From Actinomycetes bacterium (GTDB lineage: Bacteria > Actinomycetota > Acidimicrobiia > Acidimicrobiales > RAAP-2): 57,939 nt of DNA. The notes under the pieces were generated by a model. It was not told the DNA's origin. It did not search any database and was given only the letters and a program-made list of their open reading frames with translations. The stretch is taken from contig JAKBTL010000055.1 in NCBI GenBank assembly GCA_021844425.1, positions 1-57,939 on the forward strand, read 5' to 3'. Shown one piece after another: positions 7,707 to 26,120 of this stretch. The translations under genes were made by a program, and so were the position numbers. Each line of letters starts with the position of its first letter. Positions within the stretch are counted from its first letter, which is position 1.

Positions 7707-7734
7707 TCAAGGTCGCTCGCCGGAGAGCCGATGT
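7707..7734 (+). promoter_or_regulatory. Sigma-28-type promoter of flbD-motA-motB-fliL
   Basis: TCAAGGTC (7707-7714), a 12-base spacer and GCCGATGT (7727-7734). The same arrangement occurs before fliC and fliM. Transcription would begin near 7741, giving a leader of about 44 bases before flbD. Confidence 0.75.
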
Positions 7735-7746
7735 ACCTCGTGGACC

Positions 7747-7778
7747 CGCAGGCAAGGACGCCTGCGACGCAGAGGAGA
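7747..7778 (+). promoter_or_regulatory. Predicted CsrA-binding hairpin and Shine-Dalgarno site in the flbD leader
   Basis: CGCAGGC (7747-7753) and GCCTGCG (7760-7766) pair perfectly around the hexaloop AAGGAC, which fits the ANGGAN loop bound by CsrA/RsmE. A second GGA (7774-7776) lies in the ribosome site AGGAGA (7773-7778), exactly 18 bases from the first. Such paired sites let one CsrA block ribosome entry. Sequence and pairing are seen; binding is inferred from known CsrA targets. Confidence 0.6.
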
Positions 7779-7784
7779 CCACGG

Positions 7785-8114
7785 ATGATCGTCCTGAGCA
7801 CGCTCAAGGGGGAGAGCTTCGCCCTCAACGAGGATCTCATCGAGAAGGTCGAGGTCGGTTCGGAGACCCGGATCATCTTGACGACCGGCACCCGGTACAT
7901 CGTCGCCGAGTCGGCTACAGAGATCGCACGGCGGGTTCGGCTCGAGCACGCAGAGACCCAGGTCCTCGCCAAGCAGATCGACTCGCGGGCCAGGCAGCTC
8001 TCCATCATGCGGCCCGGGGAGGAGAGCGGCGGAACGAGAGGCGACGTCCTGCGGTTCGACAGGAGAACGGGCCTGGCCGACGGTCCCGCGCCTGGCGACA
8101 CGGATCGCAGGTAG
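7785..8114 (+). CDS. flbD: FlbD-family flagellar protein
   Basis: A 109-residue protein whose first 70 residues match the small FlbD family: MIVLSTLKGESFALNEDLIE, then a run ending IILTTGTRYIVAES. The C-terminal 40 residues are an extension not typical of the family. The start is ATG 7785, chosen over an upstream in-frame ATG at 7731 because the latter lies inside the promoter and 7785 has a good ribosome site (aggaga). FlbD proteins regularly precede motAB in actinobacterial and firmicute flagellar loci; their molecular role is poorly known. It is the first gene of the operon with motA, motB and fliL, and its leader carries the predicted CsrA sites. Confidence 0.85.
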   Translation: MIVLSTLKGESFALNEDLIEKVEVGSETRIILTTGTRYIVAESATEIARRVRLEHAETQVLAKQIDSRARQLSIMRPGEESGGTRGDVLRFDRRTGLADGPAPGDTDRR

Positions 8115-8208: not shown

Positions 8209-9000
8209 ATGAAGGACAAGCTCACCCCGCTCGCGATCGCCTTGGCGCTTGTCTGCATCTTTCTCGCGATGATCATGGACGGGGGCAGTCCTGCCGCCCT
8301 CTTCAAGCCCGCACCGCTCGTCTTGGTGTTCGGCGGCACCATCTGCGCCTCGGTGGCCGGCCTCTTGAAGCGGGACGTGAAGGGGCTCAAGGTGATCTTC
8401 AAGCAGGCGATGGGCCGTGACGTCGTGGATCTCGACTCATCGATCGACACGGTGGTGGAGCTCGCCCAAGTCGCCAAGTCCAAGGAAGGGCTGCTCGGGC
8501 TGGATAGCTACGTGAAGGACCTCGACGACAGCTTCTTGCAGCTCGGTGTACAGCTGATCGTCGACGGCGTCAGCACACTGGAGATACGTGACATCCTCGA
8601 GGGTGAGATCGCCGCGATGGAGGAACGCCATCGCAAGGGCATCAAGTTCTTCACCGACATGGGGGGATTCTCGCCCACCCTCGGGATTCTCGGAACCGTG
8701 ATCGGCCTCATCACCGTTCTCGGCCATCTCTCCAATCCCGGATCTCTGGGTGCTGGCATCGCCTCAGCATTCACCGCGACGCTGTGGGGTGTGCTCGCGG
8801 CCAACGTCTTCTGGCTCCCCATTGCCAACAAGCTCCAGCGCATCAGCGGAGTCGAGACTCAGGTGAAGACGATGCAGACCGAGGGCCTGCTCGCCATCCA
8901 GAACGGCAACACGAGCCGCATGGTGAGGGCGCGGATGGAGACTTTCCTTCCCGCTGGAGCCAGGGAGAGCACGGTAGTGAACGGGCAGGAGGCCGCGTGA
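8209..9000 (+). CDS. motA: Flagellar stator protein MotA
   Basis: A 263-residue inner membrane protein forming, with MotB, the ion channel that drives rotation. Four membrane segments are seen at about 7-25, 35-52, 150-172 and 184-206. The conserved prolines of the last two helices appear in FSPTLGILGTVIG and VFWLPIANKLQ, and a long cytoplasmic charged loop lies between helices 2 and 3. The start is ATG 8209 with gggagaag upstream. Its stop overlaps the motB start (GTGA), so the two are translationally coupled. Ion specificity (H+ or Na+) cannot be decided from the sequence alone. Confidence 0.95.
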   Translation: MKDKLTPLAIALALVCIFLAMIMDGGSPAALFKPAPLVLVFGGTICASVAGLLKRDVKGLKVIFKQAMGRDVVDLDSSIDTVVELAQVAKSKEGLLGLDSYVKDLDDSFLQLGVQLIVDGVSTLEIRDILEGEIAAMEERHRKGIKFFTDMGGFSPTLGILGTVIGLITVLGHLSNPGSLGAGIASAFTATLWGVLAANVFWLPIANKLQRISGVETQVKTMQTEGLLAIQNGNTSRMVRARMETFLPAGARESTVVNGQEAA

Positions 9001-13301: not shown

Positions 13302-13850
13302 ATGGCCGTCGAGACCTATCCGAAGAACCCGCCCTTCCTCGAGAGCCCCGACGCAACGCCGACCGAACCGGTGCTCTCCTTCGTGCGCCCGATCATCGCG
13401 TTCGAACGCTCCCGTCGCTACGCCGTGAGGCCGCTCAGCCTGCACTACGAGCCCTTCGCGTCCCTGGTGTCGCTCGACGTGCCGGGGCTCAATTTCGTCG
13501 TCGTGTCCCCAGGGCTCATCTTCGCCGACTACGTCTACGCCGTGCCCGAGCGTGACGTGGTCGAGCTCCGCCTCGGAGAGGTGGCGGATCCCTCAGAGAT
13601 CCAGACCCTCGCGATCGTGCGAAGGCGTGACGTGCCGTCTCCGGTCGTGAACCTGCGTGCACCGATCGTCATCAACCGCAAGCTCGGCCTCGCGTCCCAG
13701 GTGGTGCTCGAGGACGACTGCGGGTTCGGCTTCATGGTGCCGGTGGACGCGGGGAGCGCTCGCTGGACAGCAGGGCACCCAGCCGAGAACCCAGCCGAGC
13801 GCGTAGCCGGGCATCCCGGCGGGAAGGAGCCCTCTTCGTGCTCGTCCTGA
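13302..13850 (+). CDS. fliW: FliW flagellar assembly factor (CsrA antagonist)
   Basis: A 182-residue cytoplasmic protein. FliW signatures include LSFVRPIIAFERSRRY, SLHYEPFASLVSLDVPGLNF, IFADYVYAVPERDV, LAIVRRRDV and VNLRAPIVINRKLGLASQVV. In Bacillus and Campylobacter, FliW binds flagellin, and when flagellin is secreted it is freed to bind CsrA and release flagellin mRNA. Here the gene overlaps the csrA-like gene by 13 bases. The last 30 residues (Ala/Glu/Pro-rich, ending SSCSS) extend beyond the usual length of about 150. The start is ATG 13302 with ribosome site aggagaag. Confidence 0.92.
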   Translation: MAVETYPKNPPFLESPDATPTEPVLSFVRPIIAFERSRRYAVRPLSLHYEPFASLVSLDVPGLNFVVVSPGLIFADYVYAVPERDVVELRLGEVADPSEIQTLAIVRRRDVPSPVVNLRAPIVINRKLGLASQVVLEDDCGFGFMVPVDAGSARWTAGHPAENPAERVAGHPGGKEPSSCSS

Positions 13851-14434
13851 ACCGCCGCCCTGGGGAGTCGATCTACGTCGAGGGCGACATCGACATCGCC
13901 GTCCTCCGAGCGACCCACCAGACGGTGTGGCTGAGGATCGGCGGGGAGAGGATCACCCCCTCAGTCCTCCTCGGCGCGACGGCGCTGTCCGTCGAGGAGC
14001 TGCGCCTCGAGGTCGGTGCTCCGCTCAGGGCGTGGGTGGACGACCACGAGGTGCGCATCGAGGTCGCCAGCCGCGGCCACCTCTCGGTGGAGAAGCACGC
14101 GACGTTCTCCTTCCACTGTCGCCCTGGGCAAGTGGCCAAGGTAGGCGAAGACCTCGAGCTGGGCGTAGGGCCGACCGAGCGCGGCCACCCGTGCCTGACC
14201 CTCGGTGGGGAGGCGGTCGGCGCGCAGCTGCGCCTCGCCCTGATCCGCCTGGCCAGAAGCTGCGTACGTCTCGGCATCGACGCCCCCGGGCTGCGGGTGT
14301 ACCGCAAGGAGCTCTGGGAGGCGCTCGTCGCCGCCAACACTGCGGCGGCCGGCACAGGCGGGGACCTCTCCGACGCCCAGTCCCGGCTCACTCGTCCTCG
14401 TGGCGACGACGCGCCTCTTCGAGCTGCTTTCTGA
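13838..14434 (+). CDS. csrA: CsrA-family RNA-binding protein with duplicated CsrA-like modules
   Basis: A 198-residue protein, about three times normal CsrA length. Residues 1-36 match strands 1-4 (MLVLNRRPGESIYVEGDID, QTVWLRIGG) with RNA-contacting L4 and R6. Residues 142-167 match strands 4-5 plus helix (VRLGIDAP, VYRKELWEALVAAN), with R156 equal to R44 and N167 equal to the FliW-sensing N55 of B. subtilis CsrA. Between them are a second strand-5-like segment (71-87, VRIEVASRGHLSVEK, with K in place of R44) and a second strand-1-like segment (91-110, HCRPGQVAKVGEDLEL). It could be a single-chain version of the interwoven CsrA dimer with one good and one degenerate RNA surface. The GTG start overlaps fliW. 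The tail runs antisense to the gene ending at 14388. Confidence 0.85.
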   Translation: MLVLNRRPGESIYVEGDIDIAVLRATHQTVWLRIGGERITPSVLLGATALSVEELRLEVGAPLRAWVDDHEVRIEVASRGHLSVEKHATFSFHCRPGQVAKVGEDLELGVGPTERGHPCLTLGGEAVGAQLRLALIRLARSCVRLGIDAPGLRVYRKELWEALVAANTAAAGTGGDLSDAQSRLTRPRGDDAPLRAAF

Positions 14435-25173: not shown

Positions 25174-25201
25174 TCAAGGTTCCCCTGCGCCCTGCCGATG
25201 G
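25174..25201 (+). promoter_or_regulatory. Sigma-28-type promoter of flagellin
   Basis: TCAAGGTT (25174-25181), a 12-base spacer and GCCGATGG (25194-25201), matching the sites before flbD and fliM. Transcription would start near 25208, giving a leader of about 85 bases. The site lies in the 150-base divergent gap between fliC and the glycosyltransferase operon. Confidence 0.75.
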
Positions 25202-25238
25202 TCTTCTCAGCCCGCTTTCGGGGCAAAGAGACGGCGTC

Positions 25239-25286
25239 GCTCGCACATGGAGGTACGAGCTCGCTGCTATTCGACAACAAGGAGGA
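25239..25286 (+). promoter_or_regulatory. Two predicted CsrA sites in the flagellin leader
   Basis: GCTCG (25239-25243) and CGAGC (25256-25260) can pair around a loop containing ACATGGAGGT (25245-25254), a perfect match to the CsrA consensus ACANGGANGU. A second site, ACAAGGAGGA (25277-25286), matches 9 of 10 positions and covers the Shine-Dalgarno sequence. The GGA cores are 32 bases apart. This mirrors the two-site leader of B. subtilis hag. Binding itself is inferred. Confidence 0.65.
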
Positions 25287-25292
25287 ATACGG

Positions 25293-26120
25293 ATGTCTTC
25301 TCTTGTGGTGGACACGAACCTGGCGGCTCTCAACGCGCTCAACGTGTTGAACCAGACCGACGCCGCCCAGTCCCAGGCGATCAGCGAGCTGTCGTCGGGG
25401 CTCAAGATCCAGAGCGCTGCGACAGGACCTGCGCAGTACGTCATCGCCCAGAGCCTCGAGGCGCAGGCGAACGGCTACACGCAGGCGATCGCCAACGCCC
25501 AGAACGGAGTCTCGCTCATCCAGACGGCATCGGGGGCGCTCACCCAGATCTCGTCCATTCTCCAGACGATGGACCAGCTCGCGCTCACCGCGGCGACAAG
25601 CGCGACCCAGACATCGACGTCGCGCGCCGCCAACCAGGCAGAGTTCACAGACCTGGCGAAGACGATCACAAAGATCGCGACGACCACCAGCTTCGGGAAA
25701 TCCAAGCTGCTCACAGGGTCGTTCTCCGGGACGCTCCAAGTCGGGGCCTTCGACACAGCATCGACACAGATCAGCCTTGCGATCAGCGGCATGAAGCTGG
25801 CGACACTGAAGCTCACAGCATCGAAGATCACATCGGCCTCGACAGCACGAGCCGCCGTCTCGGCGGTCCAAGGCGCGATCTCGACCGTCGACTCGACGGC
25901 CGCGAAGGTGGGTGCCACGCAGAACGAGCTGAACGCGATCGTGGCGAACCTCACGGTCGGCCAGCAGAACCTCGCTGCTGCGAACAGCCAGCTGGTCGAC
26001 GTGAACATGGCGCAGGAGATGACCGCGTTCACGACCGACCAGATCCTGATGCAAACCGGCGTGGCCATGCTGGCCCAGGCCCAGCAGACCCCGTCGCTCG
26101 TGCTGAAGCTCGTCGGGTAA
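25293..26120 (+). CDS. fliC: Flagellin
   Basis: A 275-residue filament protein. It has the D0/D1 start (LNALNVLNQTDAAQSQAISE, LSSGLKIQSAATGPAQYVIA, NGYTQAIANAQNGVSLIQTA) and D1/D0 end (VGATQNELNAIVANLTVGQQ, QEMTAFTTDQILMQTGVAML). Only a short variable centre separates them, so the D2/D3 outer domains are essentially absent. The start is ATG 25293 with the strong ribosome site ggagga. Twelve of 35 threonine codons are ACA, mostly in the centre, which is also the likely glycosylated surface. It is transcribed alone, with a hairpin after it, and is the probable main target of FliW-CsrA control. Confidence 0.96.
   Translation: MSSLVVDTNLAALNALNVLNQTDAAQSQAISELSSGLKIQSAATGPAQYVIAQSLEAQANGYTQAIANAQNGVSLIQTASGALTQISSILQTMDQLALTAATSATQTSTSRAANQAEFTDLAKTITKIATTTSFGKSKLLTGSFSGTLQVGAFDTASTQISLAISGMKLATLKLTASKITSASTARAAVSAVQGAISTVDSTAAKVGATQNELNAIVANLTVGQQNLAAANSQLVDVNMAQEMTAFTTDQILMQTGVAMLAQAQQTPSLVLKLVG

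Follow-up and report, generated by a model that had tools for sequence, protein, structure and literature searches.

A putative CsrA-FliW flagellin switch with an internally duplicated CsrA in an actinobacterial order

In the window (the whole analyzed stretch of 57,939 nucleotides), the flagellin gene fliC is preceded by a hairpin of the type recognized by CsrA and by a second GGA on the ribosome binding site. We consider it probable that this leader is a switch repressed by CsrA and relieved by FliW, that a CsrA with one RNA pocket acts on it by occlusion from the hairpin, and that flbD-motA is a second target. In the proposed mechanism, CsrA would grip the ANGGAN-loop hairpin and keep ribosomes off the adjacent start site, which would also be closed by pairing with the first codons. 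Flagellin export would then free FliW, which would bind the C-terminal helix of CsrA and lift the repression. A first-pass annotation of this DNA had suggested that the flagellin homeostasis circuit operates here, and a CsrA-FliW flagellin switch in this organism is indeed very likely, because the hairpin, accompanied by a ribosome-site GGA, is conserved and covaries across the order and because csrA and fliW co-occur. In its partners and its RNA, this very likely circuit belongs with the known FliW-CsrA systems, and the repressor, judged by its sequence, is a new CsrA variant outside the usual short, symmetric, two-pocket definition.

Flagellin leaders in the window and across the order

The window belongs to a 3.0 Mb genome in 138 contigs and contains a flagellar cluster. 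The flagellin gene fliC (25293..26120, plus strand, 275 amino acids) starts with the ATG at 25293, followed by two rare TCT codons at positions 2-3. The genes fliW (13302..13850, plus strand, 182 amino acids) and csrA (13838..14434, plus strand, 198 amino acids, an internally duplicated single chain) overlap by 13 bases, csrA directly following fliW. FliW matches PF02623 (E 1.2e-21) and scores below the cut-offs of the NCBIfam FliW profile. The leader had been described as lying next to fliW and the enlarged CsrA; the three genes do share one flagellar cluster, but the pair is located 11 kb upstream of fliC and is not adjacent to it.

A candidate fliC promoter at 25174..25201 (plus strand; TCAAG, 15 bases, GCCGATGG) was assigned, like that of flbD below, by the sigma-28 consensus, and the predicted transcript start is about 25208; a sigma-28-type element is also present in 14 of 39 flagellin leaders. 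The transcript would begin with a small hairpin (25210..25224, plus strand), which is present in both folds and has similar counterparts in relatives, as judged by eye. Next comes the CsrA-type hairpin (site 1; 25239..25260, plus strand) with the hexaloop AUGGAG at 25247-25252, closed by the motif ACAUGGAGGU (25245-25254). The DNA at these positions, ACATGGAGGT, is the sole exact occurrence of ACANGGANGT on both strands of the window. The first-pass annotation reported a full motif match in a hairpin loop: the position and the match are confirmed, but the loop is only AUGGAG, and the AC and GU of the motif form the two closing pairs. The candidate site 2, ACAAGGAGGA (25277..25286, plus strand), had been given as a nine-of-ten match on the ribosome site, and it does carry one mismatch and overlap the ribosome site AAGGAGG ahead of the flagellin ATG, where it is predicted to be paired with codons 2-5. 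Thus the leader has both a GGA in the loop of a short ANGGAN hairpin and a GGA on the ribosome site, the latter being weak evidence by itself, since any AGGAGG contains GGA.

Folding of the leader (25208-25320), which had been proposed as a check, places the first GGA in a hairpin loop; in the partition-function fold the loop bases of site 1 are unpaired with probabilities of 0.98-1.00 and the stem pairs form with 0.92-1.00. Taken alone, however, neither the motif nor the fold of the window sequence beats chance. The pattern with one mismatch occurs 50 times against 30.1 expected, about two exact matches are expected by simple counting, and the fold energy is unremarkable (z -1.38), 20 of 200 shuffled sequences being equally stable. 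The strength of the hairpin case comes only through relatives.

We pooled the leaders of 14 gene copies from this genome and its relatives with 27 others from the order; for the latter, 397 genomes were sampled, 86 had a flagellin match, and the best 30 loci were used. Two genomes (G419 and G128) were left out of the count, as their coordinates gave no start, and 39 leaders were usable. A further genome, G372, was omitted, its flagellin match beginning only at residue 55. This genome is assigned to another family, yet its csrA (locus L173) hardly differs from the G012 gene, which was a further reason to omit it, and it holds a 95% identical flagellin fragment; these contigs are probably mis-binned.

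A GGA hexaloop on a stem scoring at least 5 was found in 28 of the 39 leaders, from 10 families, whereas 200 dinucleotide shuffles averaged 0.97 and never exceeded 5, and twelve control trinucleotides in the same scan gave 0-3 each. All 28 loops read A-N-G-G-A-N. The stems covary: positions 1, 2, and 5 are paired in every one of the 28 with CG, GC, AT, and TA types, and over the inner six positions 154 of 168 cells are paired versus 54-84 with one side slid, although the cells, drawn from 10 families, are not independent events, the rows being related. The comparison of fliC leaders called for by the first reading thus came out in favor of the element. The strict hairpin is missing in 11 leaders; in five of these, a relaxed scan detects GGA in the 5- to 9-base loop of a hairpin with a stem of 7-9 base pairs, and the background of that scan is much higher (29 of 39 observed, shuffle mean 8.2).

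The switch had been staked on both GGA sites persisting in close relatives that keep this csrA. This is borne out by G001, G012, and G010, whose flagellins are 73-97% identical to that of the window, but in two genomes that retain the duplicated CsrA the loop GGA is lacking from the flagellin leader found. In G005 the loop reads AGAGGC in the only flagellin found, which is a different, longer gene (63% identical) in a genome 58% complete, and in the more distant G127 it reads AAGAC and holds no GGA. The incomplete G005 also contains three duplicated CsrAs of the flagellar type (L008, L023, and L030) and more than one fliW, reflecting either mixed strains or several flagellar clusters.

The hairpin might instead be a general mRNA stabilizer or a structural leader element with no role for CsrA. 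Such a role would fit the unexceptional fold stability noted above and the fact that leaders often start with a hairpin. It would not account for an invariant A-N-G-G-A-N loop, the known recognition element of CsrA, on stems free to vary, and CsrA was found in 27 of 28 further flagellate genomes; we find this explanation hardly credible. In one genome, G196, the leader hairpin is present and CsrA was not found.

The distance from the loop GGA to the ribosome-site GGA is 26-32 bases in most genomes with the duplicated CsrA and 17-21 in many with an ordinary CsrA, reaching up to 70; these values are too scattered to serve as a lineage signal, and the spacing was abandoned as such.

The start site itself has a second peculiarity. 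The fliC ribosome site is predicted to be paired with codons 2-5, with an unpaired probability of 0.01-0.03, and synonymous recoding of the start would make the site more open in 25 of 27 flagellins. Within 25277-25310, the rare flagellin codons 2-4, TCT TCT CTY, would pair with the ribosome site, and they are conserved in a large part of the order. At positions 2-3, 30 of the 52 serine codons are TCT, versus 34 of 806 further on, and AGC and AGT, which account for 207 of those 806, are never used at positions 2-3. Start regions usually tend to be open, and the fliC pattern is the opposite. This pairing may either lower basal translation or replace the second CsrA site.

Duplicated CsrA and its partners

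The 198-residue CsrA matches PF02599 with 49.6 bits (cut-off 27), so it belongs to the CsrA profile family, and it misses both NCBIfam cut-offs (TIGR00202, 44.0 bits versus 70.1; PRK01712, 41.9 versus 73); by these scores it is a variant and not a standard CsrA. Residues 2-67 and 90-155, the two halves, give a gap-free alignment (E 6.2e-11), and each half carries an additional hairpin, placed between beta-2 and beta-3; compared with ordinary CsrA, the second half contains a 25-residue insertion. An AlphaFold2 model from 21 sequences reached pLDDT 84.1 and pTM 0.78. Fold searches with this model were set aside, and nothing here rests on them: Foldseek gave no match under E 0.001, with avidin-like barrels in the top rows, and VIA-align matched unrelated beta proteins with middling Z scores (6.4 and 5.7), its best CsrA row being the FliW-bound CsrA chain 5dmb_D (Z 2.9, 60 residues, rmsd 2.1). 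Both programs compare single chains, so that a two-chain CsrA dimer is unmatchable as a whole.

According to the excerpted text of PMC7652899, the RNA pocket of CsrA is built from beta-1 and beta-5 of opposite subunits, with L4 and R44 as the critical contacts. In an alignment of 26 duplicated CsrAs, the invariant positions are M1, L2, V3, L4, R6, R7, E10, and W31 in half 1 and G146, A149, P150, R153, R156, E158, and W160 in half 2. Hence L4 of half 1 and the R44 equivalent of half 2, R156, are kept in 26 of 26 sequences, whereas the R44 position of half 1 is arginine in only two, and the second composite pocket also varies at L4 and R6. As the beta-1 contacts are invariant in half 1 and the beta-5 arginine in half 2, one composite pocket is fully kept, and each chain probably has one working RNA pocket, made of beta-1 of half 1 and beta-5 of half 2. 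The protein therefore departs from the short symmetric two-pocket homodimer in its length, its duplication, and its eroded second pocket. The single chain may itself form a homodimer, which would restore two pockets.

These residues bear on how the two sites of the leader are used. The first reading took the leader to repeat the two-site design of B. subtilis. Two GGA sites do exist, but with a single composite pocket and with site 2 predicted to be paired, bridging of both sites by one CsrA is doubtful. Classical bridging in the manner of hag or glgC, with homodimers or both internal pockets holding the hairpin and the ribosome site together, would agree with the finding that genomes of the duplicated-CsrA lineage have both GGA sites, spaced 16-32 bases apart, within the 10-63 bases over which bridging works according to the available part of PMC7652899. 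It would also agree with the tandem CsrAs of G234 and G350, which keep L4 and R44 in both pockets. Full repression of glgC is described in the same excerpts as requiring both pockets. Against bridging here, the second composite pocket lacks R44 in 24 of 26 duplicated CsrAs and varies at L4 and R6, and the predicted fold has the GGA of the ribosome site in a stem. We consider bridging unlikely. At least one CsrA target is reported there to have a single site, and a CsrA with a single pocket and a single FliW contact would most likely occlude the start from the hairpin, with no one-molecule bridging of two sites.

A different arrangement is suggested by the extra hairpin between beta-2 and beta-3 of each half, which sits where RsmN, in the portion of PMC3791407 consulted, has the inserted helix that unswaps its dimer: the enlarged CsrA could be unswapped, with its pockets within each half. 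In that case neither half would have a complete pocket, since in 24 of 26 sequences the good beta-1 belongs to one half and the good beta-5 to the other, and their invariance would be hard to explain. We regard this arrangement as very improbable compared with a pocket shared between the halves.

FliW contacts V51 and N55 of CsrA (excerpts of PMC7829508). All 16 flagellar-type copies have asparagine at the N55 equivalent, N167 in the window protein (11 of them belong to genomes with FliW and 5 to family f31), and none of the 10 paralogs, two of which are gapped there, does. The csrA of the window thus shares with the Hag-FliW-CsrA system both this residue and an overlapping fliW. In B. subtilis, a single FliW is sufficient for inhibition of a CsrA dimer (part of PMC6529632), so each chain would need no more than one FliW contact. 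Among 81 relatives, FliW was detected in 17 genomes and CsrA in 22; in the five CsrA-bearing genomes where FliW was not found (G002, G007, G008, G009, and G011), the paralog is the only CsrA.

Within the window's family, the duplicated CsrA occurs in genera g1, g8, and g12, and genus g3 has an ordinary CsrA, as do most other families. Family f31 also has the duplicated form, in seven genomes, of which five contribute to the alignment of 26. In a sample of 396 genomes of the phylum, full-length matches to the duplicated form were found only in the genome of the window, and the other 71 matching genomes gave partial matches, mostly resembling ordinary CsrA; this sample can miss families, as f31 is absent from its matches and yet holds the duplicated form. 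A tandem CsrA of 144 residues was found in G234 and G350 of family f16 (L165, 1423-1854, minus strand; L166, 1306-1737, plus strand). It has no extra hairpins, retains the contacts of both pockets, and could possibly represent either an earlier stage or an independent fusion. A structural model of it from two sequences (pLDDT 68) was discarded.

A second duplicated CsrA gene, csrA2, encodes a protein without the FliW-contact asparagine and is found on another contig of the same genome (C85; L005, 5738-6313) and at loci L092-L099. The glgB gene is located nearby in all nine contigs and malQ in seven of them, and neither is near the six flagellar-type loci examined. The genomes bearing csrA2 include five relatives with no FliW or flagellin match. 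RCTACGGTTG, perhaps a promoter -10 element, occurs about 25-45 bases before the start in all nine csrA2 loci (L005, L092-L099) and also before the CsrA gene in L011. No convincing CsrA hairpin was found in the leaders of csrA2, fliW-csrA, or glgB and malQ, so that the link of csrA2 to glycogen is one of neighborhood alone. Tentatively, we suggest a wider scenario, which we hold with less than even confidence: a naturally monovalent CsrA arose by duplication and fusion, with one pocket and one FliW contact; the stem of the ribosome site with the rare codons took the place of the second grip; and the duplicate without the FliW contact moved to non-flagellar control beside glycogen genes, persisting where no FliW or flagellin is detectable.

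The flbD-motA leader and other candidate targets

Scanning both strands of the window for A-N-G-G-A-N hairpins yielded six, of which two precede a ribosome site and a start, those of fliC and flbD. The second hairpin (7747..7766, plus strand; hexaloop AAGGAC) follows a sigma-28-type promoter identified in the sequence (7707..7734, plus strand) and precedes the flbD ribosome site (7772..7777, plus strand), whose GGA is 18 bases after the loop GGA. The SwrD-type gene flbD (7785..8114, plus strand; PF06289, E 7e-17) has a sigma factor gene before it and motA (8209..9000, plus strand; PF01618, E 7.4e-31) downstream. In the eight genomes of g1 and g8, with this type of CsrA, whose flbD leaders were read, the flbD hairpin scores at least 5 in seven and at least 4 in all eight (shuffle means 0.19 and 0.50, respectively), compared with two and five of 22 other genomes (shuffle means 0.46 and 1.00). 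Six of the 22, belonging to g12 and f31, have a duplicated CsrA (G023, G127, G339, G419, G435, and G218) and only G419 reaches 4, so the element is a feature of g1 and g8 and not of the duplicated CsrA generally. The stem covaries, GCAGGC/GCCUGC in the window being replaced by GCAAGC/GCUUGC in G001. We suggest that flbD-motA is likely a second CsrA target in g1 and g8; to judge by their listings, open-access papers on CsrA with motA, FlbD, or SwrD describe no CsrA site ahead of flbD.

Elsewhere in the genome of the window, ACANGGANGT with AGGAGG 14-40 bases downstream occurs in four places, against none in a reversed-pattern control. Two of these have no start after the AGGAGG and a third (L132) satisfies the crude start rule but resembles a coding repeat, leaving fliC alone as convincing.

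Comparison with known systems

The results would extend the flagellin switch to an actinobacterial order and add flbD-motA as its likely second target. The open-access literature combining Acidimicrobi* with CsrA led to PMC10746217, whose excerpts name CsrA and FliW a single time each, as entries in a query-protein list. To judge by their listings, open-access papers on tandem, fused, pseudo-dimeric, or rearranged CsrA include RsmN and no duplicated single-chain CsrA.

The closest known system is Hag-FliW-CsrA of B. subtilis, which likewise has two GGA sites in the flagellin leader (BS1 at A51-A55 and BS2 at C75-G82 of hag; PMC8523840), csrA directly after fliW, and a conserved N55. It differs in that the host here is an actinobacterium, the 198-residue CsrA is duplicated with one conserved pocket, a second leader, that of flbD-motA, has the element, and the ribosome site is predicted to be paired with codons 2-5. 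The E. coli CsrA-glgC pair, as given in the excerpts of PMC7652899, similarly combines a high-affinity hairpin with a site over the ribosome site; there, however, a single homodimer spans the two sites and depends on both of its pockets, whereas here one pocket is conserved per chain. In RsmN/RsmF of Pseudomonas aeruginosa, too, an insertion located between beta-2 and beta-3 has reshaped a member of the CsrA family, but its short chains pair into a homodimer whose two pockets are equal (PMC3791407, in part), unlike the two unequal copies in one chain described here.

Whether one CsrA needs to grip two sites has so far been asked with engineered heterodimers. A lineage with a seemingly single-pocketed CsrA on an unchanged RNA target would be a natural answer, and, as the order has graded forms on conserved leaders (ordinary, tandem with both pockets, and duplicated with one), loss of the second pocket could be measured on matched RNAs. 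The CsrA of the window resembles in this respect the heterodimer with one R44A subunit, which also combines a working and a dead pocket (PMC7652899, excerpted); that heterodimer is a laboratory construct, whereas the asymmetry found here is apparently a natural one that two or more families of the order have conserved.
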